From positions 1 to 23,379 of the IMG/VR virus record IMGVR_UViG_3300042310_000189: a stretch of DNA of 23,379 nt, one strand, 5' to 3'. This document shows positions 1 through 23,212 of the stretch, piece after piece; position 1 is the first letter of the stretch, and each line of letters starts with the position of its first letter. Source of the stretch: a virus. The position numbers and the translations under genes are program-made. Below the pieces are notes generated by a model, which saw only the letters and a program-made list of their open reading frames with translations, was not told the origin of the DNA and did no database searches.

Positions 1-3000
1 GACAGTTACGCTGATGTTGAAGAAGGCGCTCAGTTAGAGTTATTTACCCAAAGCAAAAGAGCAGCTAATCGTCAACTTAAAGACATTAACGAACAAATTG
101 AAGAGCTTGGGCGAGTAAAAGATCTTAAAGATATTGGTTCTTTAGCAGAACTTAATAAACGCTTAAAAGAAACCGAAGAATGGCTTACTCAGTTTGCTAA
201 ACCTAGTGGCATGGGGCGTGCAACGCTTGCTTCGGCGCTTCGTCGTCCGGCATCTCAATATGCCAAAGACCCTTATTTTTACTATGCTCCTGATGGCACT
301 ATAGCAGAGCAAGTTAAAACGCTACAACAAGCTGCACAGAACGCTAAAGAAGAAAACGAACTTACAGATACATTTGCTGGCTATGTACGTTTACTTAATG
401 AAATAGCTAGTGAGCTTAGTCAGTTAAATGCAGACTATAGATTTGCAAATATTCCTGGATTTATTCGAGGTACAAGCGTTCGTACAGAAGAACAACAGCA
501 GCGTAAACAACAGTATTTTGATATTCGTAAAAAATTTATAGACCGCATAAAAGATATTGAAAACATAATAGGCGTAAAAGTATACGTAAAAGAAGATAAA
601 GCGTACGTTAGCCGTAAAGATAAAAAGCTAAAACCAAAAAGCGTTTACGAAACATTACTTACTAACGCTTCGTCTGAGCTAGAAGAAGTATTAATGGCTC
701 GTTATGCGCACCATAAAGCGGTTTTAGAGTCTATTAAAACTGCTCCTGAACGGCATTTGCATGCGTTAAAAATGCGCACTGCGGCTCAAGCTAAAATGGA
801 AGAGTACGATGCCAAGTTAAAAGTTTTACAAGCTAAAGAATTTAACGAGCTGCCCGCTACTAAAAAAGAACGTGAAGACACACTCGAAGCTAAAAAAGCG
901 GCAACGCAACTTTTTAGCTATTCAGACGAAACTATTAAGAGTATTGAATCTGCTTTAGATTTAGACAAAGTACGCGCTGCTGTAAACGCTGATGAAACTG
1001 TTGTAGAAGCTAGAAAAAAACTTAATGATTTACTTAAACAGTTTAAGCAACCTACAAAAGAACAAAAGCAAAGTATTTCTGCAGAAGGTAAAAATTTTAG
1101 AGATGAGCGTGCGCTACTTGATAAAACTATTGCGGAACGTGTTAAAGCGGCCGCGCAAGCTAATGCACAAATAGTAAGCCAAACTAAACAGTATCGTGTT
1201 GTGTACAACGGAATTACATACACAGTTAAATCTAGTACAAAAGTTAACGCTAAAACTTTAGAAACGTTACAAAAACAACGTGCTGCTGGCGCTGCTTTTG
1301 CGGCAGATCAAATGCAGATTACTTTGCTTGAAGACAAGATTGCGCGTCTTGAAGCACAAAAACTAGCAAGCGAAACGGGAGTAATACCTAAAACCGCTAA
1401 AAAAGTTAAAGAACTAACGCCTTTTGTTGATCTTGCAACTATTATTAAAGAGCTTGGGCCAAAAGAAAAAGCACCAGCAATTGAAATAGCTGTTAGTAAA
1501 AACGGTACACCAAAAAAATTAGGTGCGCAACAAGAAAAAGCGTTAACTAAAGCTTATGAAGATTTACAAAAAACAAAAGACAAAATGAAATTAGCTGTTT
1601 CTGCTGTGCAGAAATTAGCAATTACCCCAACCGAAACCAAATTAAAGTCTGAAGCAGAGCAGGCTGCGGATAAAACGCAAGCTATGATGATCATGTCGCA
1701 GACGCTTAATGCTAAGAAAAACGAATATCAAGATCAAATTTACGAGCAAAACAAACTTAAAGCGCCTAAAGAGCTTATTGATGAGCTAGAAAAGAAGAAA
1801 GAAGTTATTAAGCAAATGATAGGGCGTTTGAATGCCCGTGGCGAAAGAGCTTTGCGTGATATTAATCTTGAGTCTATTGAAAACGCAGTTGATTTTGTGC
1901 TTAGCTACAAAGCTCGTAAAGAAATCAAAGAAAGCACATCTGAAAACAGAATGTCTTTGCAAGAGCTAGAAGACACTATAAAAGACTTTAATGCGCAAGC
2001 TGTAGTTGCCGCTAAACTTGGAAACACAACAAATGCAAACGCTGCGCGTGAAGCAGCTAGAGAACTACAAGTTTTACTTAATGCAGAAAAAGATCTTTTA
2101 CGTATTGGTAATAATCCTGAAAAAGCTGTACATAAGCATGCGCTTCGTACAGGAACCAATAGTTTTGCTCGTGCTGCTGAAACTGTGGCTAAGAAAAAGG
2201 CCAAAGAACTTGGGTTACAAGGTGAAGCTTTTGATAAATACGTTGCTCTTAACAAAACAACGCTATACAACAAAGCGTTAGACGAATTTTATTCTCAAGG
2301 ACAAGTTGAAGCTGAATTTGACGATAAAGAAACAATTAACAGAACAATGTTCCGTGACAAACCCGGCAAATCGGGCGGCATTGATATGTTTGTTGCAGAC
2401 TCGTTTATTAATGACTTAATTAAAAAGCAAGGGTTTGACCCAACAAGGCGTGCTGTAACCACTGCTTTAGGCGCGTTTAGTCTGCCAATAAAAATACCTA
2501 AATTAGCCGATGTTAATGCTGACTTTAGAAAAATGATTGTTCAAAATGCTTTGAGTGGCTTATCTCTTGGCATTGACGATACTTCTGATTTTAGTGATAA
2601 CTTTTATAAAAAATACGGTACCCATTGGCCTGATGCTATGGGCGATCTTGAGCATAGTGCGGACAAAGTTACAGGTGGGGTGCTTACGTTATTTGAAAAT
2701 ACGTACAAAGCTATTTACAACAAAGACAAATTTGAAAAAGGCGTAGATAAAGCATCTGTTTTTGATGAAACTTTTAACAACGAAATATTTGAAGCATTAA
2801 GAAAACTTTACAACAAAGACAAATCAATAATTCATGAAAACTTTGTAGAGTACGCTAAAAAAGAAAATTACGAAGATTTTAAAGAATATATTGAATACAT
2901 GATGGCTACTGACAGAGGCCAAATAGGTAATGAATGGCACAAAGCACATTCTGCTTTATATATAGACGATTCTGTTGAATATAGTGCAACTGTTGCTCAA

Positions 3001-6000
3001 GCGTACAAAAAAGCACTTCAAGCAGTTGGTTTAAATACACAACAAGCTGAAAAAACTATTGAAGAAACAAGTAGTAAAAAAGTAACGTTAGCTACAGGCG
3101 TTAACTTTATATACGCTAAAAACATTTCTGATGCACCGCAACAATTTATAAACGATGCGGTTGCCGCTGGCAAAGACTTGACTAAAGTTCGTGGTGGCGT
3201 AATGCCTGATGGCACAGTAGTAGTTATTGGTGACGCGCACACGGACCTAAATGACCTGCAAGAAACCATTGAGCACGAGCTTATTGGACACTACGCAGTA
3301 GATACTTTACTTGGCCCGGCGGGCATGAAGGCGCTTGTTAAAAAAGTGTTTGCCGATGGAGAAGAAGGCGTACTTAAATTAGCTACTGAACTAGGTGTAT
3401 ATGATGATGTAACTGAAGCTTTTGCCGCAGCTAAAGGCACTAACATGTCTGAAGAAGCAATGCGCATGCTTGTTACTCGTGAAATGGTAGCACACACCGC
3501 AGAACGTCCGTTACCTAGCAAAGCAAGCTCAGCTTTAAAAGACTTTATTAAGATGATTGTTAACGCCGTGCGCAAGTTCTTTACGGGCGCTGGCTTTGAC
3601 AACATGCCTAGCAAAACAACGCAGGAAATATTTAATTTAATCCGCGAAGCTAAAAAGCAATATGAGGGTGGCAGGCTCGGAGCATACAGAACTCCTGACG
3701 GCAAAACAGCTTTCTTGGCCCCTACAAGTTACAGCCGTGAAGTAGAACAGAAGTCGATTGATGTTATTAACAAACTGTTTGCGCAGAAAAAATCAGTTAA
3801 AGATGGCATTTTTGCAAACGTGCTTGGCTTGCCTGGTTACACACAGTTTATTGACCGCTTAGCGCCTGCCACAAAGATTATAGAAAAAGCCGAGAGCGCA
3901 GGCATGATTGACTCTGTGTCAGCTTTGCAAACTACTATGTACTTACGTCAAACAGATCAGCGTTTAAATTTGACGGCTCAATCTGCTACTGATGGCGTAC
4001 CACAGCTAACTAAGAATGCCGCTGGTGAAATGGAAGTGCTTGGTAAAAAAGATGGCGCTAACTTAATTAAGGTTGGCAATATATTGCAACGAGCAAAAAT
4101 GCTTGGTAATGCGCAGGCCATTAATAATTTGTTTGGTTTGTATTTAGTAGCTATACGTGCTAAGCGTGTTGGGTTAAAAACGCTAGCTTCAGACTTACGG
4201 ATAACAGAAAAAGAATTAAAAGACGTTGTTGCTAATATTGAACAAGCCGGCGCTAAACCTATATTTGAAGAAGCGGCTAAAGTTTATGCTGAGTACAACA
4301 AAGATTTAATTAATTTTGCAGTTCAGACAGGCGCTATTTCTAAAGAAGAAGGTGCTCGATTAACTAAATACAACGATTACGTGCCTTTTTACAGGGTGCG
4401 TGACGGTATTGCGCAACTAGTTATCTCAGGCGAGCAAGTTATAAATGTAGGGCGTTTAACAGATCAGCCTTACCTAGATGAGTTGGTTGGCGGCAAAGAG
4501 ATGTTGGTCAACTTTGAAGAAAGCGCGTTTCAAAATACAGCTGTATTGGTTGATTTAGCTTTACGTAACTTAGCCACAGGTCAATTAGCCCAACAACTTG
4601 AGAAGATTGGCACAGGGCAGACTAAAATTGCCACACGTGTTAGCCCCAAGCTAACTGGCACAGACATTATTAGGGCAAAAATAGACGGTGTGGATGCGGC
4701 TTGGCGCTTGAATACCAAAGATACACCTTTTGAAGATATACCTGCTGACCTGTTAATTAAAGGGCTTGACGGTATTAAGCTGCAGATACCTGTGGCAGTT
4801 AAGATTTTAGGTTTGCCAAGCCGTTGGCTGCGCACCATGATTACTAGAGATCCTGCGTATTCTGTGCGGCAGATCATTAAAGACTCTACGGCAATGTGGC
4901 TTTACTCAGGCGCAAATGCTAAGCCTGTAATTGACGCTACCAAAGAACTTGGCAGCATGTGGGCTAACAAGAACCAGACTGAGAAAGAACTACAACGAGC
5001 TGGTTTAGTGGGCGGTCAACTGTTTACCGGTATGCCAGAGGACATGAGCAGAATCATGTTGCAGATTACCAGTGGTAAAACGGGTTGGCAAATGTTGCTA
5101 GCTAAATTAGATCGGGCCGCTATGAAGGGTGATGCGGCTACCCGTGTAGCTATGTACAACGCATACCTAAAACAAGGCATGACGCCTATGCGGGCTAAGC
5201 TAGCTGTTTTAGAGTCGCTAAACGTAAATAAGCGTGGTTTATCGCCAAGCGTGTATTGGATGTCTACTTTGGTACCGTTCATGAACACACAGGTTCAAGG
5301 TTTGACTATGTTTGCCAAGTCGTTTAAGGGAACTAGCAACCTAGGCGGACAAAAAGATTTGCGTATGAAGATGTTTAAGCGCGGTACGTACTTGGCGTTG
5401 TTTACCATGATGTACGCTGCAGCTATGCAAGACGACGAGGCATATAAAAATGCTGATCCGTTTGTTAAGTACAACAGTTGGTTTATCAGGGTGCCGTTCC
5501 TTGACGAACCGATCAGAGTCCCAACACCGTTTGAATTTGGATACGTGTTTAAGGGTTTACCCGAAGCAGTATTTAACATGATGTTTAATGACGAAGAAGC
5601 TAAGAACGTACTTAAGTTCTTCAAGCAAGCCGCTTCTAACAGTAACCCAATTGGTTTACCGCAGGCAATCAAGCCAGCAATCGAAGCAACTGCTAATTTC
5701 TCGTTCTTTACCGGTCAAGATATTGAGTCCGCAAAAGAGAAAAGAATGCTGCCCGGCTACAGAGAGCGCCCACAAACAACTGAATTAGCCAAGTGGGTAT
5801 CTAGCCTTGATAAAGAACTGCTATCGCCTGTGATGCTTGATTACTTAGCCAAGGCATACGGCGGTGGCCTAACGCTTGCGCTTACTAGCGCCTTAAATCC
5901 TGTGCTTGCACCAACAACAGACGTGGCTTCACCCACCAAAATGCCTAGCCAGTACCCAATTGTTGGCGGTTTCTTTCAACCTAACGATGCAAGCGGGGTA

Positions 6001-6300
6001 ATTAACGCAGCCTACGAGACCGCAGAGCGCGCGCAACAAGCTTCTAATACGCTAAAGCAGATTGCCGCCAAGGGCAACAAAGAAGAGATCGAAGCCTTTG
6101 TACGTAAATACAGCAACGAGTTGATGATTGAGCAAGCCGCCGGTGCGTTTACTAGAGAGATGGGTCAGCTAGCTGCCGCTGAAAAAGCGGTTCGTGAAGA
6201 CAAGCGCATGAGCGCTGACGAGAAAGCTGAGAAAATCAAGCAGTTACGCGCAATTAGAATCAAGATGGCTGAGGCGCTTAATAAGTCTAAACCCTCTTAA
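1..6300 (+). CDS. Giant polyvalent phage protein, 5'-truncated, LPD38-like C-terminus
   Basis: The frame is open from base 1, so the gene starts outside the window; the first internal ATG (211) is not the real start. The visible 2099 residues begin with about 700 residues rich in Lys, Ala, Glu and Gln, predicted by eye to be coiled coil. Near window residues 1092-1097 is HELIGH, an HExxxH motif like the HExxGH signatures of large phage polyproteins. YVPFYR lies near residue 1457. Residues about 1600-1960 (TRDPAYSVRQIIKDS, MNTQVQGL, PTPFEFGYVFKGLPEAVF) resemble large polyvalent protein-associated domain 38. Family knowledge suggests a virion-packaged, injected protein with possible peptidase activity; this is inference. 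Base composition rises from about 28% GC in a sampled early line to about 55% near the 3' end. It is probably a late gene, convergent with the - strand operon. Confidence 0.88.
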   Translation, partial: DSYADVEEGAQLELFTQSKRAANRQLKDINEQIEELGRVKDLKDIGSLAELNKRLKETEEWLTQFAKPSGMGRATLASALRRPASQYAKDPYFYYAPDGTIAEQVKTLQQAAQNAKEENELTDTFAGYVRLLNEIASELSQLNADYRFANIPGFIRGTSVRTEEQQQRKQQYFDIRKKFIDRIKDIENIIGVKVYVKEDKAYVSRKDKKLKPKSVYETLLTNASSELEEVLMARYAHHKAVLESIKTAPERHLHALKMRTAAQAKMEEYDAKLKVLQAKEFNELPATKKEREDTLEAKKAATQLFSYSDETIKSIESALDLDKVRAAVNADETVVEARKKLNDLLKQFKQPTKEQKQSISAEGKNFRDERALLDKTIAERVKAAAQANAQIVSQTKQYRVVYNGITYTVKSSTKVNAKTLETLQKQRAAGAAFAADQMQITLLEDKIARLEAQKLASETGVIPKTAKKVKELTPFVDLATIIKELGPKEKAPAIEIAVSKNGTPKKLGAQQEKALTKAYEDLQKTKDKMKLAVSAVQKLAITPTETKLKSEAEQAADKTQAMMIMSQTLNAKKNEYQDQIYEQNKLKAPKELIDELEKKKEVIKQMIGRLNARGERALRDINLESIENAVDFVLSYKARKEIKESTSENRMSLQELEDTIKDFNAQAVVAAKLGNTTNANAAREAARELQVLLNAEKDLLRIGNNPEKAVHKHALRTGTNSFARAAETVAKKKAKELGLQGEAFDKYVALNKTTLYNKALDEFYSQGQVEAEFDDKETINRTMFRDKPGKSGGIDMFVADSFINDLIKKQGFDPTRRAVTTALGAFSLPIKIPKLADVNADFRKMIVQNALSGLSLGIDDTSDFSDNFYKKYGTHWPDAMGDLEHSADKVTGGVLTLFENTYKAIYNKDKFEKGVDKASVFDETFNNEIFEALRKLYNKDKSIIHENFVEYAKKENYEDFKEYIEYMMATDRGQIGNEWHKAHSALYIDDSVEYSATVAQAYKKALQAVGLNTQQAEKTIEETSSKKVTLATGVNFIYAKNISDAPQQFINDAVAAGKDLTKVRGGVMPDGTVVVIGDAHTDLNDLQETIEHELIGHYAVDTLLGPAGMKALVKKVFADGEEGVLKLATELGVYDDVTEAFAAAKGTNMSEEAMRMLVTREMVAHTAERPLPSKASSALKDFIKMIVNAVRKFFTGAGFDNMPSKTTQEIFNLIREAKKQYEGGRLGAYRTPDGKTAFLAPTSYSREVEQKSIDVINKLFAQKKSVKDGIFANVLGLPGYTQFIDRLAPATKIIEKAESAGMIDSVSALQTTMYLRQTDQRLNLTAQSATDGVPQLTKNAAGEMEVLGKKDGANLIKVGNILQRAKMLGNAQAINNLFGLYLVAIRAKRVGLKTLASDLRITEKELKDVVANIEQAGAKPIFEEAAKVYAEYNKDLINFAVQTGAISKEEGARLTKYNDYVPFYRVRDGIAQLVISGEQVINVGRLTDQPYLDELVGGKEMLVNFEESAFQNTAVLVDLALRNLATGQLAQQLEKIGTGQTKIATRVSPKLTGTDIIRAKIDGVDAAWRLNTKDTPFEDIPADLLIKGLDGIKLQIPVAVKILGLPSRWLRTMITRDPAYSVRQIIKDSTAMWLYSGANAKPVIDATKELGSMWANKNQTEKELQRAGLVGGQLFTGMPEDMSRIMLQITSGKTGWQMLLAKLDRAAMKGDAATRVAMYNAYLKQGMTPMRAKLAVLESLNVNKRGLSPSVYWMSTLVPFMNTQVQGLTMFAKSFKGTSNLGGQKDLRMKMFKRGTYLALFTMMYAAAMQDDEAYKNADPFVKYNSWFIRVPFLDEPIRVPTPFEFGYVFKGLPEAVFNMMFNDEEAKNVLKFFKQAASNSNPIGLPQAIKPAIEATANFSFFTGQDIESAKEKRMLPGYRERPQTTELAKWVSSLDKELLSPVMLDYLAKAYGGGLTLALTSALNPVLAPTTDVASPTKMPSQYPIVGGFFQPNDASGVINAAYETAERAQQASNTLKQIAAKGNKEEIEAFVRKYSNELMIEQAAGAFTREMGQLAAAEKAVREDKRMSADEKAEKIKQLRAIRIKMAEALNKSKPS

Positions 6301-13418: not shown

Positions 13419-14081
13419 CTAGTGCTTGGGGTTAAATTCACATGTCTTGACAGGACACCAACCGCATAAAGGCGTTTGCGTAGGGTTCCAAACATTATTG
13501 TCGTACGAAGCAGCAAGCTTGGCTACCCTCTCCCGATAGCGCCACCAATGCTCGTCTTTCTCTTCTACGGTCATCACTTGTGTGACCATCGAGTTCTTTA
13601 CAACGAATAGCAGAGCCGAGTTCACTTGACGGATGTGGGGGAAGTGGGCAAACACCATCAAAGACATCAGGGTTAACTGGTCGCGGTCAGGGTATTTGTC
13701 GTTGCCTGTCTTGTAGTCCACCACTCTAGCTTTGAGCCCATCGTCGTCAATGATTAGCAAGTCAGCTATGCCACGCACCCACACACCTGCATCGTTAAAA
13801 CTGCAAGGCGACAAATCCTCCTTAAGCCCCATCTCGTGCTCGGTCAGTTTGCGCCCTGTCTTCTTAAGCAGTGCGTCTAGGGTGGGTTGCATATAGTCAA
13901 ACTCAGGGGGTAATGGTACGCTATCACGTACGTATAGTTCAGCCGCTTCATGCACTTGCTTGCCGTAGATAGTGTGCGTAGTGTCTGTGAACGGGTAGTT
14001 CTTAAGAACCTTAACTTCGTGGTAACGTCTTGCACAACCCTCGAAGTCTTTAAGCCCTGAGTGCGACCATTTAATTTTCAT
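13419..14081 (-). CDS. PD-(D/E)XK nuclease, Cas4/RecB-like with four cysteines
   Basis: Of 220 residues, VRGIADLLIIDDDG (D107) and VVDYKTG (D122, K124) form the PD-(D/E)XK catalytic core, with H44 (GKQVHEA) at the usual preceding position and DRDQ (134-135) after it. C16 plus C206, C209 and C214 reproduce the one-plus-three cysteine layout that holds a 4Fe-4S cluster in Cas4 and AddB-type nucleases. It is probably a DNA end-processing exonuclease used with the SSB-like protein and SNF2 helicase. There is no CRISPR array in the window, so a CRISPR role is not suggested. Its start shares one base with the stop of the HExxH gene. Confidence 0.9.
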   Translation of the reverse strand: MKIKWSHSGLKDFEGCARRYHEVKVLKNYPFTDTTHTIYGKQVHEAAELYVRDSVPLPPEFDYMQPTLDALLKKTGRKLTEHEMGLKEDLSPCSFNDAGVWVRGIADLLIIDDDGLKARVVDYKTGNDKYPDRDQLTLMSLMVFAHFPHIRQVNSALLFVVKNSMVTQVMTVEEKDEHWWRYRERVAKLAASYDNNVWNPTQTPLCGWCPVKTCEFNPKH

Positions 14082-14386
14082 CAGAACCTCGCAGTCTTGA
14101 CGATTTGGTCTAAACGCTGAGAGAAGGCGGTTACAAACTTCTCGTCGTAGCTTAGTTTGTTCTTCATGTCGTGCAGTATGGCGTGAGTAATCTCATGCCA
14201 AAACGTTTCTCTGCGCTCTTCTCTACTGAAGAAGTTGCCTTGTATATCTTTTCTTGCTACATCAATGCTGTTGTCTGAGCGACAAAAACAACCTCTGCAT
14301 GGTTTACCGCGTACCATAAGCGACGTTGGTTGATTGATCTTGATTTTGGTCTTACCGACCGTTACTTCTTTGGGTATTGGCATCAT
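14081..14386 (-). CDS. Small HExxH zinc metallopeptidase-like protein (101 aa)
   Basis: The motif ETFWHEITHAIL contains HExxH (H64, E65, H68), the zinc-binding signature of zincins, followed about 14 residues later by acidic residues (D81, E82) that could supply the third ligand. The overall size and WHEITHAI recall phage proteins related to ImmA/IrrE-type peptidases, which cleave regulators. C30, C33 and C35 near the N-terminus form an additional unexplained cluster (PCRGCFC). The ATG overlaps the polymerase stop (ATGA), so it is translated with the polymerase. The substrate is unknown. A purely structural zinc fold is the alternative. Confidence 0.82.
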   Translation of the reverse strand: MMPIPKEVTVGKTKIKINQPTSLMVRGKPCRGCFCRSDNSIDVARKDIQGNFFSREERRETFWHEITHAILHDMKNKLSYDEKFVTAFSQRLDQIVKTARF

Positions 14387-16359
14387 TTTGCTTCTCCATA
14401 TCGTTTGTTACAGCCTGTTTCCGCATCAAGCGGAATTCCTTTCATATATGGTGGGTCTGCCACCATCTGCTCTAAAACCCAAGCCTCTGCTTCTTTGGCT
14501 TCGTCCTCGGGAACTAACACTACAACCTCATCGTGAACGGTTAATACGCAGGAATACCTCTTTTGTATCCTGAGCATGCCGTCTGTCATGACGCAACGTG
14601 CAACTGCTTGCACCACGTTTTCTACTACCTTACCGCCGTATAGCTTCTTTTTATCGACGCCATAATGCCACTGAACACGACCTTTTTCATCAGCCGAACC
14701 AGTTAAGTCAGGGTATCGTAAAGACAACCCACTTGGTAATCTTATGCTTTCTTTAGAAAATGTCAAGCACTTGTGCGTGTATTCTTTTCCGTCAGCTAAG
14801 CTGTGCTTAATTAGCCCACCACACAAATCCCAAAAGCTAACAACTTCTCTTGCTCTGCTTCGGTAGATGTCGATAATCTTTTTAGCAGACACGCAGTGCA
14901 CCAACAACTCATCATCTGTGCAAGTGCGTGGTATACCCGCCATCATCTCAAGGTTTTTCTCCCAACCAAGGAAGTCAGCGATGTCTTGTGAAGTTACCCC
15001 CAACTGCTTGGCAAACGCTTTGTCGTAGCGTGTGGGTGGTGCGCCTAGAAAGCCTGTAAGTAACTGTGCAGAGAATGAAGCCCAACCCATGCCATACCCA
15101 CATCCGAGTAGAGCGGACTTGGCTGACTGTCTGAGGTCTGCGTGGTCTTTCTTGTTAAGTCCAGGGATACCGAACATCTGCGCACCAAACGCCGCATATG
15201 CGTCTTGTCCCGATGCAAAGATTTCCAGTAGGGGTTGGTAGTCCGCGAGGTACGCAAGAACCCTTGGTTCAATTTGCGAAAGGTCGCATACAACGAGGGT
15301 GTAACCCTCCGGCGCACAGATACTTTTGCGTAAGAAAGACCCCCGCTTGAGGTTCTGTAGATTAAGCCCCGAACCCTTGGACGCAGACCAACGACCGGTG
15401 TGAGCGCCGTAGTAATGGAGCGGAACAGGGAGCGTACCTCGTCCCGCAATGTCCACAAAGCGTTGCGCTCTTGTGCGCTCAAGCGTGCTTTTAACTTTAA
15501 GACGCGCCTCACAGATGAGCGATACATCTTCATTATCGGAGTTGAGTAACGCTTGGAATAGAGCGTCGTTCTTGGCAAACGCATACGCTTCTTTACCTGT
15601 CGTCTTGCTAACTTTCTTCGGTGGCGTAACTCCAAGCCCAAGCAATACATCTGCAAACTGGTCGTTGCTTGCAAGCGCTTTCTCTTCCACCCCAATTTTT
15701 TCAAGCAAAGCTTCACGCTTTTCTTTCTCTTCCTCGATAGCCTCACTTAGCATCTCCTTATCAAGTTCAAGCACAGGGTTAATAAACATTTTGAGCGTCA
15801 TGTCAATGAGCTTTAACTCTTTAACTGGGTAGCCGCCCTCTACTTCCATGGCTAACTTCTCCAATATCTGTTGGCAAAGCGTTACGTCGTGCTTGCAATA
15901 CTCTGCAAGTTCTTGCTCTACTTCATACGACAAATCCGCCAAGCCGTTGCTACTGTTGATTGCCTCGCCCTTGGGCGGTAGCTTATACCGCTCAGCAAGC
16001 TTAGCCAAACTGTTGCCGCCTTCTACACCAAACAGCGCACGAGCCATAGACAGCGTGTCAAAGACAAAGCATGGCTTAGCGCCATACACCCAAGAGAGAA
16101 TAGCTACGTCGAACTGTGCGTTGTGTGCCACCACTGCCGTAGTATCCCAATCAATCGACTCGACCCATGCAGGAATGTCATCGTGCGACACCCATACAGG
16201 AGGCTCTTCATCTGCCAAATCTTTATACGCTAGACCAAACGCTTTGAACTGCGAGTGGCGTACGTACTGCTCGGTGGTCAGCTTTGATAGCGTGTAGGAC
16301 TTACTATCCCAACGTGTTTCAAAATCAATCACGAGCATGCGTTCAAATGGTGCGCTCAT
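14383..16359 (-). CDS. Family A DNA polymerase with 3'-5' exonuclease
   Basis: The replicative polymerase, 658 residues. The proofreading domain shows ExoI DFET (D12, E14), ExoII HNAQFD (D84) and ExoIII YCKHD (Y154, D158). The polymerase domain shows motif A DLSQIE (from D359), the O-helix RQSAKSALLGCGYG (R410, K414, Y422) and motif C VHDE (H609-D610-E611). By alignment to E. coli R754/K758/Y766, the position of Phe762 is L418. No 5'-3' nuclease domain is present, as usual for phage enzymes. The start overlaps the methyltransferase stop by 4 nt, with AAGGA upstream. The motifs are complete, so it is expected to be active. Confidence 0.97.
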   Translation of the reverse strand: MSAPFERMLVIDFETRWDSKSYTLSKLTTEQYVRHSQFKAFGLAYKDLADEEPPVWVSHDDIPAWVESIDWDTTAVVAHNAQFDVAILSWVYGAKPCFVFDTLSMARALFGVEGGNSLAKLAERYKLPPKGEAINSSNGLADLSYEVEQELAEYCKHDVTLCQQILEKLAMEVEGGYPVKELKLIDMTLKMFINPVLELDKEMLSEAIEEEKEKREALLEKIGVEEKALASNDQFADVLLGLGVTPPKKVSKTTGKEAYAFAKNDALFQALLNSDNEDVSLICEARLKVKSTLERTRAQRFVDIAGRGTLPVPLHYYGAHTGRWSASKGSGLNLQNLKRGSFLRKSICAPEGYTLVVCDLSQIEPRVLAYLADYQPLLEIFASGQDAYAAFGAQMFGIPGLNKKDHADLRQSAKSALLGCGYGMGWASFSAQLLTGFLGAPPTRYDKAFAKQLGVTSQDIADFLGWEKNLEMMAGIPRTCTDDELLVHCVSAKKIIDIYRSRAREVVSFWDLCGGLIKHSLADGKEYTHKCLTFSKESIRLPSGLSLRYPDLTGSADEKGRVQWHYGVDKKKLYGGKVVENVVQAVARCVMTDGMLRIQKRYSCVLTVHDEVVVLVPEDEAKEAEAWVLEQMVADPPYMKGIPLDAETGCNKRYGEAK

Positions 16360-17072
16360 TTTTTCCTTACGGCTAAATTATTCTGACCCATTGCTTTGAT
16401 CTCGTATCCCATACCTTGCAGATATTCAAACAAATCTTTGCGCTTCTCTTGATACCAAGGCTTCCATGTCCATGCCTCAAAGATAATCGGTGGGTAGTTG
16501 TTTTGTTTGAGAGTTTTTACCGCACCTTTGATAACCTCAAGTTCGTGACCCTCAACGTCAATTTTTATCAAGCGCACGTTCTTGTGTTGCCCGTCGTCTA
16601 GCGGGAATACAACCATGGGTTCAACTTTGCCCACAGTCGCACACTCGTAGTCGTTGGCACGTGTATCTTCGTCAATGCTAAACGCCCCGATGTTGGTTTC
16701 CTTTGCATAGTCAGGCATCTCAATCTCAAAGCGATCACGCTTGTTAGATAGCCCAAAGTTATGGCAGTGCACATTGTCCAAGCCATTTATGAACGCGTTG
16801 CCACAAAGTTGGTAGTACACAATACGTTGCGGTTCAAACGCGTGATATGTGTGCTTTGATATTTTCCTAGCAAGCGGTAGGCAAAACGATCCAAGGTTAG
16901 CGCCGATGTCTAGCACTGTACCCACCTCGTCATTAACCAAAAGCTTGAGGCATATCTGATGTATGTCGTTCTCGTACAGGTCTTTTCTCAAATAGTTTGA
17001 GATCAGGTCTTGCCCTTTAAAGATGAGAAACTGTGTGCCGTCGACTTTAAGTAGTTCGCAGTTAGGTAGCAT
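16356..17072 (-). CDS. FkbM-family SAM-dependent methyltransferase
   Basis: The 238-residue protein has the class I methyltransferase motif I VLDIGANLGSF (53-63), FEP (79-81) at the acidic end of strand 2, and the FkbM signature IKIDVEGHE (169-177). FkbM enzymes usually O-methylate sugars or small molecules. It follows a glycosyltransferase gene and a 60-aa gene in the same transcript, so it may cap a sugar added by the glycosyltransferase. The ATG lies 11 nt inside the 60-aa gene. Having these genes immediately before the DNA polymerase is unusual for tail- or envelope-glycan genes. The target (host surface glycan, virion glycoprotein, or modified base) is not determined. Confidence 0.9.
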   Translation of the reverse strand: MLPNCELLKVDGTQFLIFKGQDLISNYLRKDLYENDIHQICLKLLVNDEVGTVLDIGANLGSFCLPLARKISKHTYHAFEPQRIVYYQLCGNAFINGLDNVHCHNFGLSNKRDRFEIEMPDYAKETNIGAFSIDEDTRANDYECATVGKVEPMVVFPLDDGQHKNVRLIKIDVEGHELEVIKGAVKTLKQNNYPPIIFEAWTWKPWYQEKRKDLFEYLQGMGYEIKAMGQNNLAVRKK

Positions 17073-17244
17073 CTTTTAGCTTTCTGTGTGTTTCTTTAGC
17101 CGCATCCATAAGCCCTTTTGCAACCTCTGGATAATCCGCACGTAAACGAATAATTATTTCTCCCAACACATCTTCAAAATTTTCGTTTTTAAATGCAGGG
17201 CTAAGTACGTTGTCTACTAATTCTTTTCTTGTTACTTTTTTCAT
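17062..17244 (-). CDS. Hypothetical small helical protein (60 aa)
   Basis: A short, charged, probably all-helical protein (KKVTRKELVDNVLSP, then ADYPEVAKGLMDAAKETHRK) without cysteines or a membrane segment. It begins one base after the glycosyltransferase stop (TGAGATG) with AAGGGG upstream, and overlaps the methyltransferase start by 11 nt, so it is sandwiched between two sugar-modifying enzymes. Function unknown; it might be an accessory subunit, but nothing in the sequence shows that. Confidence 0.75.
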   Translation of the reverse strand: MKKVTRKELVDNVLSPAFKNENFEDVLGEIIIRLRADYPEVAKGLMDAAKETHRKLKDAT

Positions 17245-17245
17245 C

Positions 17246-18022
17246 TCACCCCCTTGGCAGTGTGCCGCTGAAGTTGTACGTACCGCTATGGGTTAGTTGA
17301 GCCCAAGGCGCCGCATATACCTTAAAGCCATTCTGTCTAGCCAGTTTGCAGAAGTGATAATCCTCAGAAAGCAAACGGTTGGATGTCTCGTCGATACTAG
17401 TTGCAAAATATTCATGGATGATTTTCTTCTGTGGGTTTTTGTCAATAATAAGAATCATGTCGTTGGTATAGGTTGGCACCTTGTCTTTGAGTGCCTCAAA
17501 TACCCCCCGTTTAATCAACATAAATCCTGTGCCGCCGTTGTCGATCTCCATCGGCTCATTGATGTTGCCTGTGGTCTCCATTGCACCGCCCACTAGGTTA
17601 ACTACAAACGACCCTGTGTAGTTTGGCAAGTCTTTGTAGTCCACACCCCGCTTGACCGCATCCGATACTAACTGCCAGTTGATTTCTTTCTTGGGATACA
17701 GACCACAGATGATGTCTTTGTCGGCGTTAATCATGCGCACGATGTCGGCGGGGTTAAAGCTTATGTCCGCATCAATAAACATTAGGTGGGTTGCGTCGGG
17801 TGTTGATAGGAAGTCGTAAGCTAATCCGTTACGCGCGCGGGTAATCAACGACTCATTCATCATATACGAGTAGTACATCTTGACGTTGTTCTGCATAAAC
17901 ACTTGAGTGCAGTTCAAGATACCCATGGTGTATCCACCTACACACATACCACCATACATTGGTGTAGCTACAAATAATATGGCGGGTTTCTTTGGTTCTG
18001 TTGCTTCTACATTTTCTAACAT
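17246..18022 (-). CDS. GT-A fold glycosyltransferase (family 2-like)
   Basis: The 258-residue protein starts with a Rossmann-like strand (PAILFVATPMYGG) and has the metal-binding FIDADISF (D84-x-D86, DxD motif), GGTGFMLIKR, LLSEDYHFC (the S/ED motif near 219-221) and a late HSG (from H245), in the order expected of a GT-A glycosyltransferase. It probably transfers a sugar from a nucleotide donor. No signal or membrane segment is seen, so it is cytoplasmic. Together with the FkbM-type methyltransferase it forms a probable glycan-modifying pair. The start follows AAGGAG and directly abuts the stop of a small membrane protein gene (TAAATG). Confidence 0.88.
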   Translation of the reverse strand: MLENVEATEPKKPAILFVATPMYGGMCVGGYTMGILNCTQVFMQNNVKMYYSYMMNESLITRARNGLAYDFLSTPDATHLMFIDADISFNPADIVRMINADKDIICGLYPKKEINWQLVSDAVKRGVDYKDLPNYTGSFVVNLVGGAMETTGNINEPMEIDNGGTGFMLIKRGVFEALKDKVPTYTNDMILIIDKNPQKKIIHEYFATSIDETSNRLLSEDYHFCKLARQNGFKVYAAPWAQLTHSGTYNFSGTLPRG

Positions 18023-18799: not shown

Positions 18800-19083
18800 G
18801 ATATATCCCTTAACATAATCTTTACGTCGTCAATGTTGTCCTCGTTGACAACGAGTGTTATTCCATTCGCTTCACGTATCTTGCGCATCTCGGCTTCTTG
18901 TAGTGCAGTAGGCTTGTTACTGCCTGCTTTACACTCAATACCAAAGAACACACCCCGATAACAACCAACAATATCAGGAACCCCACTACGCCCATAGCCA
19001 CCAGTAGCAGGGAAAAAATAGTAAGCGCCGTTTTCTTTAAGAACATTGACTACCCTCTTCTTTACTTTAGCCTCGGGGGTCAT
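18796..19083 (-). CDS. VRR-NUC domain nuclease (95 aa)
   Basis: The whole protein is one VRR-NUC (PD-(D/E)XK type) domain: E4 in the first helix, GGYGRSGVPDIVG with D37, then GIECKAG with E50-x-K52, and PTALQ with Q62. Stand-alone VRR-NUC proteins are common in phages and act as structure-selective or nicking endonucleases, for example on branched DNA. With the Cas4-like and HNH proteins it is the third nuclease in this operon. Start and stop both overlap neighbours by 4 nt. Confidence 0.93.
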   Translation of the reverse strand: MTPEAKVKKRVVNVLKENGAYYFFPATGGYGRSGVPDIVGCYRGVFFGIECKAGSNKPTALQEAEMRKIREANGITLVVNEDNIDDVKIMLRDIS

Positions 19084-19280
19084 GCATCCTCCTTGCCGTA
19101 ACGTCTGCGCACATCATCAATACGTTGTAGGCATAGCATGATCTGTTGGATTTGATTCTGCAACATCTGTTCATCGCCAACTGCGTTAGCTTTGAGAGCC
19201 AAGATAACCTCAGCTTCAAGGTTGCATAGCGCCGCGTTCTCACGCATCAGCTTCAATACTTCGGCTTCATCTATAGGCAT
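19080..19280 (-). CDS. Hypothetical helical protein (66 aa)
   Basis: The product is almost entirely helical, with charged heptads (MPIDEAEVLKLMREN, LEAEVILALKANA, DVRRRYGKEDA), and may dimerise as a coiled coil. The open frame extends to 19496, but that part overlaps the winged-helix gene and reads as a shadow. The ATG at 19280 has GAGGAG 7 nt upstream and overlaps the winged-helix gene by 14 nt. No function recognised. An accessory of the VRR-NUC nuclease or the winged-helix protein is possible from position only. Confidence 0.75.
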   Translation of the reverse strand: MPIDEAEVLKLMRENAALCNLEAEVILALKANAVGDEQMLQNQIQQIMLCLQRIDDVRRRYGKEDA

Positions 19281-19557
19281 GACGTAACTCCTCGAGAAAG
19301 CTAAGACCTCTGCCTGTCGTTTCAAACTCGTGCATGCGTTGGTCTTCGGACTTGACTTTGTGTATAAGTTTCTTGCGTTCAATCTGCTTGAGATACTTGT
19401 GCGTAGTCGCAGGCGACATGACATCTTGTTTCTCAGCAAGATTAAGAATACGCGTTGTGCTAATCGGCTCAAGCGCTCTGACCATACCCAATACATACTC
19501 CTCGGGCATAGTCACCTTGTGCTTGGCACGAATAGCTTGCGTCTTAAATGCGTTCAC
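19267..19557 (-). CDS. Winged helix-turn-helix protein, MarR-like (96 aa)
   Basis: The order helix, helix, recognition helix, wing is visible: ISTTRILNLAEKQD, then SPATTHKYLKQIERKKLI (recognition), then a wing HKVKSEDQRMHEFETTGRG, and a final helix LSFLEELRHAYR. This fits a MarR-like winged helix, probably a DNA-binding regulator of phage or host genes. Initiation is at GTG (19557), directly after a full AAGGAGG; an ATG overlapping it is in another frame. It follows the DUF3150-like gene after 9 nt, so it may control that cassette. Confidence 0.83.
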   Translation of the reverse strand: MNAFKTQAIRAKHKVTMPEEYVLGMVRALEPISTTRILNLAEKQDVMSPATTHKYLKQIERKKLIHKVKSEDQRMHEFETTGRGLSFLEELRHAYR

Positions 19558-19566
19558 ATTACCTCC

Positions 19567-20439
19567 TTAAAAAGAAAACTTGTTGAGAATATCATCAACC
19601 TGAGACTTGACCTCGGTGCGTGCACCCATGTCCTTGCGTAAGTCCTTGATGTCAACGCCGTTGATAGCTTTCTTCAGCGCCTTGCGTGCTTCTTCGATCT
19701 GCGGGTCGTTGATGATGTTGAGAGACTCAGCCAACTCACACAACTCATGGGCATTTTCTAGCAACGTCTCGTGGAACTTGCGTGGTCTAGCTTCGCCTGC
19801 GATGACGTCAACACCTAGCCTGTCCGACATACGCTTGAGATGCTCGAGAAGCCGTTGCTTGAAGCCGTTGATAGCTGACTCGACACGTTGGTCGGCAAGC
19901 TTGGCTAGCTTCTCTTGCAGTTCTTTCTGCGCCTCGTTGCCCACGTCAACCCTAAAGTCACCAGATGCAGGGACGGGCATGTAGTTGACGTTGAAACTAA
20001 AGCGGTGTGCGATGTCGTCCGCAGACGGGTAGTCTGTTCTGTTGAACATATCTCCAAGAGCCATGGCTTGTGCAGTAATAAGTGATGGGTAAACAGTAAC
20101 GAACTCTTGAACCAGTCCGTAAAACTTATCTTCTCGTTCTCGTAACTGGTCATTAAACTCCATGAACTTAGCGCTTGGCAACAAGCGTATACCCGAGTCA
20201 CTCCATGGCAACGTGTTGTCATACACAAAGCCACGAGTCTCTGTAACGTATTGGTTAATAACTTCTAGTTCACTACGCCCTGCGAGCAGGTGTTTGTTTA
20301 CACGTGCCGCGCCTTTGTCTTGTGCGTTCTTGTCTTTCACAAGTTCCTCAGTCGTGGACTTGTCTAGTTTCCTAGCAGTCCATTGTGAAACACTTAGTTC
20401 AACAAGCAACGCACATGTGTCGATGTTGTATCGTGTCAT
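19567..20439 (-). CDS. DUF3150-like protein of a MoxR/VWA cassette
   Basis: The 290-residue protein begins LLVELSVSQWTARKLDK, followed by mixed helical regions, a conserved-looking FNVNYMPVPASGDFRVDVG and a helix-rich C-terminus (ELQEKLAKLADQRVESAIN, EEARKALKKAINGVD). The opening and GDFRV region recall DUF3150 proteins, which occur with CobS-like AAA ATPases and CobT-like VWA proteins in plasmids and integrative elements. That same partnership is present here. Its biochemical role is unknown; it might be the adaptor or substrate of the ATPase. Its start shares one base with the previous stop (TAATG). The domain name is from memory and unsearched. Confidence 0.75.
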   Translation of the reverse strand: MTRYNIDTCALLVELSVSQWTARKLDKSTTEELVKDKNAQDKGAARVNKHLLAGRSELEVINQYVTETRGFVYDNTLPWSDSGIRLLPSAKFMEFNDQLREREDKFYGLVQEFVTVYPSLITAQAMALGDMFNRTDYPSADDIAHRFSFNVNYMPVPASGDFRVDVGNEAQKELQEKLAKLADQRVESAINGFKQRLLEHLKRMSDRLGVDVIAGEARPRKFHETLLENAHELCELAESLNIINDPQIEEARKALKKAINGVDIKDLRKDMGARTEVKSQVDDILNKFSF

Positions 20440-20852
20440 TATTTAATCCCTAGTTGTGAGAACAAATCGTCAAGGTCGTCAAGCTTCTCTGTGCGGGTAA
20501 GAACAACGGCTTTCTTGTCGGTCGTCGTGCCAACTTTGTGACAGCCATTACCCCACAGCTTAGTAGCCATAGATGATGCAGACCCATAGATGTGGTCAAC
20601 ATCAAACTGCCCGATCGGAATAGTTACCGTTTGATTTACCCCGCACGCCTCAACGTATGGTCTGATGTATGTGGAAATTGAACCATACGGATACTTTGAT
20701 GGCGCTTTCCTCTTCTTGCTTACTGCGGTCAAGTCGCCATGCAGATTACCCTCTACGTCTTTGATTGCATACTGCGCACCAATAGCGTTGAGTAGTTTGA
20801 TTGCGTTGGTTAATGCTTTTTCATGTAATACAGAAGTTCTGATCTGTTTCAT
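20439..20852 (-). CDS. Hypothetical protein within the MoxR/VWA cassette (137 aa)
   Basis: Not recognised. There is a helical N-terminus (HEKALTNAIKLLNAIGAQYA) and then an alpha/beta region with YPYGSISTYIRPYVEACG, IPIGQFDVDHIYGSASSMATKLWG and a C-terminus ending DDLDDLFSQLG. The Leu/Asp-rich tail could be a docking peptide. WG followed by a Thr-rich stretch and VVLTR suggests a compact DNA- or nucleotide-binding fold, but no motif is firm. It sits between the VWA protein and the DUF3150-like protein, one base from the latter, so it may be a fourth component. Its leader shares sequence blocks with the operon leader at 23223-23258. Confidence 0.78.
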   Translation of the reverse strand: MKQIRTSVLHEKALTNAIKLLNAIGAQYAIKDVEGNLHGDLTAVSKKRKAPSKYPYGSISTYIRPYVEACGVNQTVTIPIGQFDVDHIYGSASSMATKLWGNGCHKVGTTTDKKAVVLTRTEKLDDLDDLFSQLGIK

Positions 20853-20875
20853 AAGTTCCTCGTTTGGTTAGAAAG

Positions 20876-22087
20876 TTACTGCGAATAAATGCGAACTACT
20901 TTGCCCTCGGGGGGCGTGAAGTGGTCGTTGTCAACCACACCCCAAAGCGCAGGCATGCCTGTCTCTGAGTTAGAGCCGTCGAGGTAGCCGTCTGTTAACC
21001 AAACGATACCCTTGGGCTGATACTTCTTCTCGGTAATGTATTGCACAACACACTCAGGTGAAGTGCCACCACCACCGTTAGGCTTGAGCAAGCCTGCAAT
21101 CTTCTCGTATTCATGTGGCTTGAACACTTGCTCACCGCATACTGCTGAGTCCCACCAAATGACACGAACTGCATCGGGTCTGACGTTGTCGCAGATACGA
21201 GCAATCTCACCGAATACAGTAGGCAAGATGTCATACATAGAACCTGACGTATCGGTTGCCACAATCAACTCGCCTGTTGCCTCTGAGAAATGCGAAGGCA
21301 TGACGATACCCTGTGGTAGCAAACGTTTGTTGGGTGGGGCAAAGCGAGAATAGTCGTCGCCTTCACACAGGGCAGTAATCCACTCACGCATATGCTCACG
21401 CCAGTTGGTGTCACGTTTCTGTGTTGCCTTGTCCAACGGATTGTTGGCTGACCTCTTACCTGCCAACTTGTTGGCGAGAACCTTGCCTTGGCGTAGTGCG
21501 TCGTCAATCTGTCTGCCGTTCTCGTTGGCTTCCTTGCTATCCTTGGGTAGCTTGCCAAAGGTATGCGTGTCGAGTGGCTGACCCTGACCATCGCCCTCAA
21601 CATACTGAACACCGCCTACTTCAACTACTTTCACATTCTTTAATAAATCCTGCAACACCTCAATGAACGACCACCCCTGATACTTGGGGTCGAACAAAGG
21701 CACAGGCTCGGTGGTGCGTTCAATGAATTGGAAGTTGGGGTCAATCTCAAACAGCGTAGCGTTGACTACGTAATCCATCGCCATGTTGGTAAGCAAGGGA
21801 TACTTCTCGCTGATGGCTTGGTAGTTGGTGCAATGTTGTAAAGCCTTGTGCATAGCCTCATGCAACACAACAAAGCGCAACTGCTTGCGTGTCAAGCCCA
21901 TGACGAACTGCTCGTTGTAAATAACATCACGCCCATCTGTGCCTGCAGTCGGGCACTCTGTAACGAACTTGATGTCGCCCACGTAAACGACACCCGACAA
22001 CCCTGCGAAGTCTGCGTTGTTGCTGATGTCTACGTGCACCGCAATAATGCGGTTGTGTGCATCTAATTTTTCCCATGTTTTACTCAT
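20876..22087 (-). CDS. Metallopeptidase-like / VWA protein (DUF2201 type)
   Basis: The 403-residue protein has an N-terminal zincin-like domain with VVLHEAMHKALQH (H76, E77, H80) and a C-terminal von Willebrand factor A domain with a full MIDAS: DTSGS (D279, S281, S283), T342 in GGGGTSP and D366 in LTDGYLD. This is the DUF2201 arrangement, known from operons with MoxR-family ATPases. VWA proteins typically deliver clients to the ATPase, and the HExxH domain may be a true protease or a binding fold. It starts 9 nt after the ATPase gene with AAGGA upstream, so the two proteins are made together. All metal-binding residues look intact. Confidence 0.92.
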   Translation of the reverse strand: MSKTWEKLDAHNRIIAVHVDISNNADFAGLSGVVYVGDIKFVTECPTAGTDGRDVIYNEQFVMGLTRKQLRFVVLHEAMHKALQHCTNYQAISEKYPLLTNMAMDYVVNATLFEIDPNFQFIERTTEPVPLFDPKYQGWSFIEVLQDLLKNVKVVEVGGVQYVEGDGQGQPLDTHTFGKLPKDSKEANENGRQIDDALRQGKVLANKLAGKRSANNPLDKATQKRDTNWREHMREWITALCEGDDYSRFAPPNKRLLPQGIVMPSHFSEATGELIVATDTSGSMYDILPTVFGEIARICDNVRPDAVRVIWWDSAVCGEQVFKPHEYEKIAGLLKPNGGGGTSPECVVQYITEKKYQPKGIVWLTDGYLDGSNSETGMPALWGVVDNDHFTPPEGKVVRIYSQ

Positions 22088-22096
22088 GTTCTTTCC

Positions 22097-23212
22097 TTAC
22101 TTAGTTGCGAAATAAATGCGGTTGTCTTGCATCAACTGTTGGAACGGCTTGACTGTTACAAACAACGACGCACGTGTTGAGTTGGCGATGTTGTTGCAGA
22201 ACATTGACTGCAGTTCTCTGCGGTTGCGCATGACATACTCGGTGCAAGCCTCGGCTTCTTCCCTCGTGCTTGTTTGTGTAACGCATTTCAAGACGGTGAT
22301 AATCTGCGCCACAGGATTGCTTGGGATAGAGCAAGTGCTTGGAGAGGAAACGATCTTGCTAAACGCAGGGGTATCCTCACCGAACCGAATGAACGCACCC
22401 ATAATCTCAGCACCGGCACGACCGATAGTGCCTGTGAGTAGCGCTTGCAATGTGTCGGTGTCGTAGCCATCTTTCTCTGTGACGATGTCGCTAGCTGAGT
22501 GCAACGAGCGTGGTGTGATGTATGCCTGTTGCGACAAGCGTGGGTTGAAGATGAGGTCGTTCTCACGTGCTTGGTCTTTGCCTGCATACTTGCCACCTAC
22601 CTCGTAGTCAAGGAACGAGTCGAACCAATGTGGGTTCTCGTCGGTGCAAGCAATCACGATGGGGTTGATACCCGCATCAATAGCCCACTCACGCCACTCG
22701 GGTTGGGTTGGTTTGCGCATGGTGAGGAACACTAGCCTGTTGCGTAAGTGCGCTTGGATAGAATCACCCAAGCCCTCAACTGCTAGGTTGGTTGCGCAGA
22801 ACACAACGCTACCCTCAGCCATCTCGTAGTTACCAACACGTCGCTCATAAACAATCGGCGCAAGAACGTCTTTGATGTATTGCTTTGCCTTGGCAATCTC
22901 GTCAAGAAACACGAGAGATGGGCGCGCACCATTGACACCTTTCTGATTGAGTTTGCTCACCCCAAATCTTTCATTTGGTAGTTCCCTACTGACCCCTGCA
23001 TCTCTGTCAATGTCGGGCATCCACACAGAACCATCTGACATCTGCGTGCAGTCAAGCTTGACACCCACATGGTTTGCGAAGTCGGGGTCTTGCTCGAGTG
23101 CGTGGTATACACCAGTCTTGCCGACACCATTCTCACCTTGAATGATGATGGTGCGCTTGTGACCAACTGCTTTAACGGCTTGCTTTACTTGCTTGAAGTT
23201 TAGTAATTGCAT
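22097..23212 (-). CDS. MoxR-family AAA+ ATPase (CobS/NorQ-like)
   Basis: The 371-residue protein has Walker A GENGVGKT (26-33), Walker B LVFLDE (100-105, D104-E105), sensor 1 VFCATN (N142) and arginine-finger candidates in LRNRL (R157, R159): a complete AAA+ module followed by a helical lid and a C-terminal extension. Such ATPases remodel or activate partner proteins, usually with a VWA protein like the one encoded next. It is the first complete gene of the - strand block and lies behind an extended -10 promoter. The start has AGAGG about 5 nt upstream. The substrate in the infected cell is unknown. Confidence 0.93.
   Translation of the reverse strand: MQLLNFKQVKQAVKAVGHKRTIIIQGENGVGKTGVYHALEQDPDFANHVGVKLDCTQMSDGSVWMPDIDRDAGVSRELPNERFGVSKLNQKGVNGARPSLVFLDEIAKAKQYIKDVLAPIVYERRVGNYEMAEGSVVFCATNLAVEGLGDSIQAHLRNRLVFLTMRKPTQPEWREWAIDAGINPIVIACTDENPHWFDSFLDYEVGGKYAGKDQARENDLIFNPRLSQQAYITPRSLHSASDIVTEKDGYDTDTLQALLTGTIGRAGAEIMGAFIRFGEDTPAFSKIVSSPSTCSIPSNPVAQIITVLKCVTQTSTREEAEACTEYVMRNRRELQSMFCNNIANSTRASLFVTVKPFQQLMQDNRIYFATK

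Follow-up and report, generated by a model that had tools for sequence, protein, structure and literature searches.

Machines built from a MoxR AAA+ ATPase and a VWA partner are known protein remodellers with cellular clients. NorQD and RavA-ViaA each combine a MoxR ring with a VWA protein, and the parts of their descriptions available to us contain no third, DUF3150 subunit. A third conserved protein is present in the vWA-MoxR ternary conflict systems, which are enriched in multicellular bacteria, where it is VMAP, iSTAND or another protein (PMC7159879). In phages, a MoxR ATPase adjoining a VWA protein with an N-terminal metallopeptidase is already known from group 2.2 jumbo phages; the accessible portion of that report proposes a role in virion assembly and makes no mention of a DUF3150 partner (PMC7824862). 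The equivalent genes of phage N4, gp24 and gp25, are core genes of the Schitoviridae (PMC4193335, PMC7650795).

Here we analysed a 23,379-nucleotide stretch of viral DNA (the window; IMG/VR record IMGVR_UViG_3300042310_000189) that carries a three-part version of such a machine on mobile DNA, with DUF3150 in the place held by VMAP, iSTAND or another protein in the conflict systems. The initial annotation had regarded the locus as the window's best candidate for an undescribed multi-gene system. Novelty does not hold for the phage pair of MoxR ATPase and metallopeptidase-VWA protein, as the jumbo-phage and N4 examples show, but we found no description of DUF3150 as a third partner of such pairs, and DUF3150 is not named in any paper of the literature searched.

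Components of the cassette

ORF calls on the window gave four minus-strand frames in the cassette, of 371, 403, 137 and 290 aa (Table 1), and the ORF positions and aligned-residue checks agree with the four genes and intact motifs first described. The intergenic gaps from the ATPase to the DUF3150 gene are 9, 23 and −1 bases, the last reflecting a one-base overlap between the stop of the 137-aa gene and the start of the DUF3150 gene. Purine-rich ribosome-binding sequences precede the starts of the ATPase, VWA and 137-aa genes. The core unit is three genes, encoding a MoxR-type AAA+ ATPase, a metallopeptidase-VWA (DUF2201) protein and a DUF3150 protein, and this three-gene composition is well supported. 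A fixed set of four was not upheld, as the 137-aa gene proved optional.

Table 1 Features of the cassette and its flanks in the window
Feature	Length	Coordinates	Strand	Family or remark
U326, 3' end, cut by window end	326 aa in L002	23292..23379	-	
MoxR-like AAA+ ATPase	371 aa	22097..23212	-	PHROG 1297 'ATPase' (N4 gp24 type)
Metallopeptidase (HEXXH, DUF2201_N) fused to VWA (DUF2201)	403 aa	20876..22087	-	PHROG 1314 (N4 gp25 type)
Accessory protein	137 aa	20439..20852	-	Present in 32/66 related DUF3150 loci
DUF3150 protein, proposed third subunit/adaptor	290 aa	19567..20439	-	Pfam PF11348
Winged-helix protein, non-core		19267..19557	-	Next gene downstream, 9-base gap

The ATPase matches phrog_1297 with an E value of 1.6e-37. 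Its score against AAA_5 (E 0.013) is under the Pfam cut-off, and its blast relatives carry the annotation 'MoxR ATPase'. Walker A, Walker B (D104, E105), sensor-1 N142 and a sensor-2-like R235 are invariant across 28 aligned sequences, so that the protein contains the AAA+ core motif set with its catalytic residues intact, as the initial annotation had claimed. A search of solved structures by sequence returned no useful match for it. The 403-aa protein scored above the Pfam cut-offs for both DUF2201_N (E 1.6e-11) and the DUF2201 VWA domain (E 8.4e-12). Its HEXXH (H76, E77, H80) and its MIDAS residues (DxSGS, T342, D366) are likewise invariant in 28 aligned sequences, in line with the earlier claim of intact metal-binding and catalytic sites. 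Structures matched by the predicted model of this protein (pLDDT 79.6) are VWA/MIDAS domains, among them those of MDN1-MIDAS and of the NorQD complex, and the model is similar to the MIDAS domains of NorD and midasin. Its matches by sequence to solved structures were designed SAKe proteins aligned over a short stretch, and these were set aside as not useful.

The 290-aa protein belongs to PF11348 (E 2.6e-8; 34 bits against a gathering cut-off of 24.9), and an independent profile comparison with canonical DUF3150 members gave an E value of 5e-7. The assignment to DUF3150 therefore stands. The protein, modelled at pLDDT 83.9, is mostly alpha-helical; no enzyme motif was recognised in it, there was no STAND match in Pfam and no PADLOC match, and comparison of the model with the PDB gave no fold match (best E 0.8). 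Against BFVD, the model had eight phage matches. Cultured phages with DUF3150 include Synechococcus phage MinM2 and Planktothrix phage Pag-Yong1.

The adjacent ATPase and VWA genes of the window share PHROGs 1297 and 1314 with N4 gp24 and gp25, at about 22–30% identity between the N4-type and window proteins. The genes of these two PHROGs are also adjacent in Vibrio phage 1.245.O. Unlike in the window, a profile search of Schitoviridae regions, those of Pollock and 1.245.O, gave no DUF3150. More generally, the N4-like and rV5-like phage regions examined contain the ATPase and VWA genes and gave no DUF3150 by profile, indicating that DUF3150 is not required by every ATPase/VWA pair.

Linkage of the three genes on phages, plasmids and ICE-like elements

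Every related viral contig of sufficient length has the ATPase, VWA and DUF3150 genes linked on a single strand. This linkage is more than chance would give, and the earlier expectation of co-occurrence was borne out for these three of the four genes. Because many viral loci are close kin, their synteny is not independent, and this is what would favour a reading in which unrelated genes are held together only by shared phage synteny. We consider that reading extremely improbable, as distant phages and plasmids keep the linkage with the genes in another order, and ICE/IncC-type elements show it with an ATPase/VWA pair that is not orthologous. The order is ATPase-VWA-DUF3150 in the clade of the window, DUF3150-ATPase-VWA in a distant phage clade and ATPase-DUF3150-VWA on plasmids; that linkage is kept despite these changes argues for function.

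Forty-four plasmids with a window-type DUF3150 were recovered, mostly from Burkholderiales. A VWA gene lies beside or within ~3 kb of DUF3150 in 41 of them, and an ATPase is detectable beside it in 27. Each of the three proteins of the window has a homologue in the Burkholderiales plasmid version (hhalign E 1e-57, 1e-44 and 2e-28), and the homology extends over most of the protein length; the triads of pBVIE02 and pRK1-1 are examples. The plasmid triads differ from the window in gene order, in having PRTRC or T4SS genes as neighbours, with a weak link to recombination genes, and in that some copies of the VWA protein have lost HEXXH while retaining MIDAS. On Ca. Manganitrophus plasmids, DUF3150 and an ATPase were found and the VWA gene was not detected. 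A related-locus scan of a genome collection with DUF3150 yielded 3 relatives only, and PF11348 was then searched in 399 genomes. Of 7 regions with DUF3150 taken from Pseudomonadota genomes, such a VWA protein occurs within ~6 kb in all 7 and the ATPase in 6.

A second, non-orthologous version on ICE/IncC-type elements consists of a CbbQ-type ATPase, a CobT-like VWA protein and DUF3150. It has the same three roles as the window triad and a homologous DUF3150 (E 5e-7), whereas its ATPase ('CobS') and VWA protein come from different subfamilies: the canonical ATPase matches that of the window at Walker A only, and the profile match of the CobT-like protein is limited to the VWA domain. The DUF3150 of this version is found in 1,168 plasmid records, of which 978 are conjugative; IncC plasmids, which spread drug resistance, are among them. 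Its triads are often adjoined by ssb/bet(recT)/exo recombination and transfer genes, an association that is strong on IncC/ICE-type elements and only regional in the phages. Sequence comparisons thus show that phages, plasmids and ICE-like elements have in common a conserved, linked trio of ATPase, metallopeptidase-VWA protein and DUF3150, the last of which occurs with two different MoxR/metallopeptidase-VWA pairs.

The initial annotation had likened the cassette to CobS/DUF3150/CobT-like sets. The likeness is sound for the architecture, which is found on plasmids, ICE-like elements and phages, but fails for cobaltochelatase kinship of the window proteins, which was rejected in the absence of any CobS/CobT match in Pfam or NCBIfam and with the CobT-like profile overlap confined to VWA. 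A role in metal insertion, like that of cobaltochelatase or NorQD, is accordingly very unlikely. The matches of the IncC/ICE-type versions to the CbbQ_C and CobT Pfam models would favour it, as would the insertion of iron by NorQD into its target (PMC13036017), but the window proteins match no CobS or CobT model, and neither a CobN-like large subunit nor an obvious metalloenzyme client was present among those scanned.

A possible remodelling machine of mobile DNA

The triad, fixed in a phage group and recurring on plasmids, looks like a real and undescribed protein-remodelling machine of mobile DNA. Our favoured interpretation, to which we give slightly less than an even chance, is that an AAA+ ATPase, a VWA protein and an adaptor remodel, and possibly clip, a protein complex during replication and recombination of mobile DNA. 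By analogy with its family, the ATPase would form a hexameric ring, on which the VWA protein would dock through its MIDAS domain and transmit mechanical force in the manner of NorD on NorQ (PMC13036017). DUF3150 may be a dedicated adaptor that chooses or presents the protein substrate, and any clipping of this substrate could fall to the zincin domain of the VWA protein. Since some plasmid copies without HEXXH keep MIDAS, the core activity is probably remodelling without cleavage. The three-protein association in this model rests on gene linkage, which is not equivalent to complex formation.

As to the target, we infer, more speculatively, that the substrate could be a protein complex on mobile DNA that is being replicated, recombined or established: in the phages the neighbours are DNA polymerase, nucleases and an SNF2 helicase, and on conjugative elements they are ssb/bet/exo and transfer genes. 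Knowledge of the client would explain a backbone part shared by conjugative elements and phages. In a broader and doubtful version of the proposal, the MoxR/metallopeptidase-VWA machines of mobile elements would generally have DUF3150 as their third subunit, a partner on which phages, plasmids and ICE-like elements would have converged at least twice. The complex would then serve widely in establishment, stripping a host protein complex from incoming DNA or processing it there, beside phage-type recombination.

A rival reading is virion assembly, in which the pair would assemble the structural proteins of the phage and mature them by proteolysis, and DUF3150 would be an accessory. Such a role has been proposed, in the part of the report available, for the jumbo-phage pairs (PMC7824862), and p618, the MoxR ATPase of Acidianus two-tailed virus, is part of the virion, binds the VWA protein p892 and has been assigned a role in tail development (PMC4124505). 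However, homologous triads reside on plasmids, which make no virions, and in the window the triad is on the strand of the DNA polymerase and helicase genes, opposite a large 2029-aa protein (211–6300). We therefore regard virion assembly as rather unlikely here.

Genes flanking the cassette

The cassette had been placed at the head of an early operon. The 88-base frame at the end of the window reads YVPLGQFPNALPRTYYLVDKGNSQGKGV followed by a stop, and the C-terminus of the L002 protein is YVPIGQFPNALPRTYYLVDKGNSQGKGV; the frame thus codes for the C-terminus of another same-strand gene, U326, which was detected by profile in 54 fetched loci, nearly always immediately upstream of the ATPase. A longer contig that shares 10.5 kb with the window at 99.9% identity has seven same-strand ORFs upstream, an amidoligase among them. 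The cassette is thus not first in its operon, and the argument for early use loses its basis. On the plasmids, the gene immediately preceding the ATPase was considered as a possible counterpart of U326, and the two showed no similarity.

Close relatives have an amidoligase/GATase pair upstream. Such a pair is discussed, in the portion of the source available, as a cell-wall modifier preventing superinfection (cited in PMC10580990), and this neighbour lends something to a counter-defence or host-takeover reading, in which the machine would disassemble or cleave a host defence or regulatory complex. The spread of the triad over phages, plasmids and ICE-like elements would also fit a shared anti-defence device. 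Against this, the proteins are unrelated to known defence families (weak AAA matches only in PADLOC), variable anti-defence genes less typically show such core-like conservation over entire clades, and a target candidate is absent; we judge this reading fairly improbable. The amidoligase and GATase were rejected as obligate partners of the triad, as only 6 fetched loci have them.

A promoter scan of the window alone found fewer promoter-like sites than in shuffles and was thus not informative, and a tRNA search of the window found none. On the downstream side, the winged-helix gene is probably on the same transcript as the cassette.

Gene content and limits of the module

The four minus-strand ORFs on this IMG/VR virus record of 23,379 bases lie exactly where the initial annotation had placed them, separated by 9, 23 and −1 bases from the ATPase through the VWA and 137-aa genes to DUF3150; a winged-helix ORF follows 9 bases on. 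The DUF3150-like call for the 290-aa protein and the intactness of the motifs were likewise borne out, the former by Pfam and the latter by an alignment of 28 sequences that shows no variation at the HEXXH and MIDAS positions of the VWA protein or, in the ATPase, at the Walker, sensor-1 and sensor-2-like positions. The PHROG family of the VWA protein carries the label 'HNH endonuclease', which RefSeq phage records also give to proteins of the N4 gp25 kind; the Pfam assignment of the window member is DUF2201 rather than HNH.

Features of the window and of related loci (L-numbers)
Feature	Location	Strand	Remarks
MoxR-type ATPase	22097-23212	minus	Several Pfam AAA models, weak; PHROG 1297, strong (E 1.6e-37)
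VWA protein, 403 aa	20876-22087	minus	Pfam DUF2201_N and DUF2201; PHROG 1314
137-aa protein	20439-20852	minus	ORF call
DUF3150 protein, 290 aa	19567-20439	minus	Pfam DUF3150 (E 2.6e-8)
Winged-helix protein and 138-aa ORF	19080-19557		Overlapping frames, relatives of both in many loci; winged-helix frame with GTG start and strong ribosome-binding site
FkbM-type methyltransferase and Anp1-like glycosyltransferase	16356-18022		Adjoin DNA polymerase gene; vary among relatives
101-aa protein	14081-14386		HEITH motif; weak likeness to SprT or IrrE-type metallopeptidases
2029-aa protein	211-6300	opposite to triad	LPD38 polyvalent-protein domain near C-terminus
Amidoligase and class-II glutamine amidotransferase-like genes	L002:2035-4505	as triad	Upstream of triad, here and in some other clades; 6 loci in all
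~600-aa and ~340-aa proteins	L083:2264-5096; L089:2056-4893		Occupy the U326 position in one phage clade; L083 copy of the ~340-aa protein matches peptidase family M28
HEXXH-less plasmid VWA genes	L105:8935-10221; L107:8914-10191		Variovorax SRS16 and P. dioscoreae; MIDAS retained
ATPase, DUF1257, DUF2997, DUF3150 in a row	L095:5866-8888		Ca. Manganitrophus plasmid; no VWA gene detected; possibly a separate DUF3150 system

Window-derived queries retrieved 66 viral loci via DUF3150 and 25 via the VWA protein. The ATPase, VWA and DUF3150 genes occur together on one strand in every contig long enough; those without the full set (L010, L012, L017, L034, L041, L047, L049, L061, L070 and L080) each end inside the module. 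A four-gene cassette had been proposed, but of the 66 loci retrieved via DUF3150 only 32 contain the 137-aa gene; the actual unit is the triad. Since the viral loci are related and partly redundant, independent cases weigh more. A distant phage clade (L016-L026; DUF3150 identity about 29-35%) has the order DUF3150-ATPase-VWA. DUF3150 is also present in two Planktothrix phages and in Synechococcus phage MinM2, where the ATPase flanks it on one side and the VWA gene on the other, with small genes between.

The module had also been placed at the head of an operon. However, the final 88 bases of the window encode the C-terminus of another gene on the same strand, and L002, a relative 99.9% identical over the 10.5 kb overlap, continues upstream with seven genes on that strand: U326 (326 aa), U150, U169, U76, a 339-aa class-II glutamine amidotransferase-like protein (Pfam GATase_4, E 4e-4, under the curated cut-off), a 471-aa amidoligase (Pfam, E 3.6e-7) and U195. 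The operon-head impression is an effect of the contig end. By profile search U326 is more regularly present than the 137-aa gene, being found in 54 fetched loci and directly before the ATPase in nearly all.

Triads on plasmids and a second partner pair

Window-type DUF3150 was found on 44 plasmid records. By coordinate comparison, a VWA gene adjoins it or lies within about 3 kb on 41 (one across the record start) and a detectable ATPase adjoins it on 27, the order being ATPase-DUF3150-VWA. All three proteins are homologous to those of the window (profile comparison, E 1e-57, 1e-44 and 2e-28). Virion assembly, put forward for a jumbo-phage pair (PMC7824862) and supported by Acidianus two-tailed virus (PMC4124505), is unlikely to be the common function of such machines, as triads on plasmids speak against it. 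A counter-defence role would fit the joint occurrence on mobile elements, but PADLOC returned weak AAA matches only and we regard this role as doubtful.

A scan of 399 Pseudomonadota genomes found DUF3150 in 10, with 9 above the family cut-off. Seven regions were extracted for their strong matches. Each has a CobT/VWA-model protein no more than about 6 kb away, with HEXXH in six of these proteins, and six regions contain a MoxR-type ATPase; AAA_5/CbbQ_C matches were confirmed in all four ATPases scanned with Pfam. A canonical DUF3150 query matched 1,168 plasmid records, and conjugative plasmids account for 978; the records include many near-identical clinical plasmids and a handful were opened, so that the triad there, unlike DUF3150, is known from examples. 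Among the examples inspected, two genome regions with YqaJ exonuclease, a Citrobacter plasmid, pPm60 and IncC plasmid pNDM-116-17 (with the AAA ATPase gene upstream of ssb) have the triad close to ssb, bet or recT, to a lambda-type exonuclease gene and to transfer genes. A Stutzerimonas plasmid carries the triad without bet/exo.

DUF3150 is homologous between the two triads (profile comparison, E 5e-7), whereas the ATPases align at Walker A only and the VWA proteins in the VWA domain only. DUF3150 thus accompanies two distinct MoxR/metallopeptidase-VWA pairs, which is the strongest argument for it as their third working part. MoxR-VWA machines and phage MoxR/metallopeptidase-VWA pairs are already known, as are other MoxR-VWA ternary systems (PMC7159879). 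Our literature search, which subscription papers or other names may have escaped, retrieved no paper naming DUF3150; as far as it shows, a DUF3150-containing ternary system is undescribed as such.

Predicted mechanism

Structural matches of the modelled VWA protein (pLDDT 79.6) are VWA/MIDAS domains, among them those of midasin and the NorQD complex. The DUF3150 model (pLDDT 83.9) is mostly helical, and a search of solved structures returned no relative. In NorQD, the ATPase hexamer is the docking site of the VWA partner, and the twisting of a linker remodels the client (PMC13036017). By analogy, the ATPase ring would drive the VWA protein and DUF3150 would select or present the client, which the zincin domain of the VWA protein might cleave. 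Because two of six aligned plasmid VWA copies (Variovorax SRS16 and P. dioscoreae) lack HEXXH and retain MIDAS, the core activity is probably remodelling rather than proteolysis. Metal insertion by the triad seems very improbable, as neither a client nor family matches for it turned up among the window proteins scanned.

The phage neighbourhood includes a family A DNA polymerase, VRR-NUC-type and PD-(D/E)XK nucleases and an SNF2 helicase. Taken with the conjugation genes and the ssb/bet/exo set of ICE/IncC-type elements, these neighbours point to DNA replication and recombination as the setting of the putative client.
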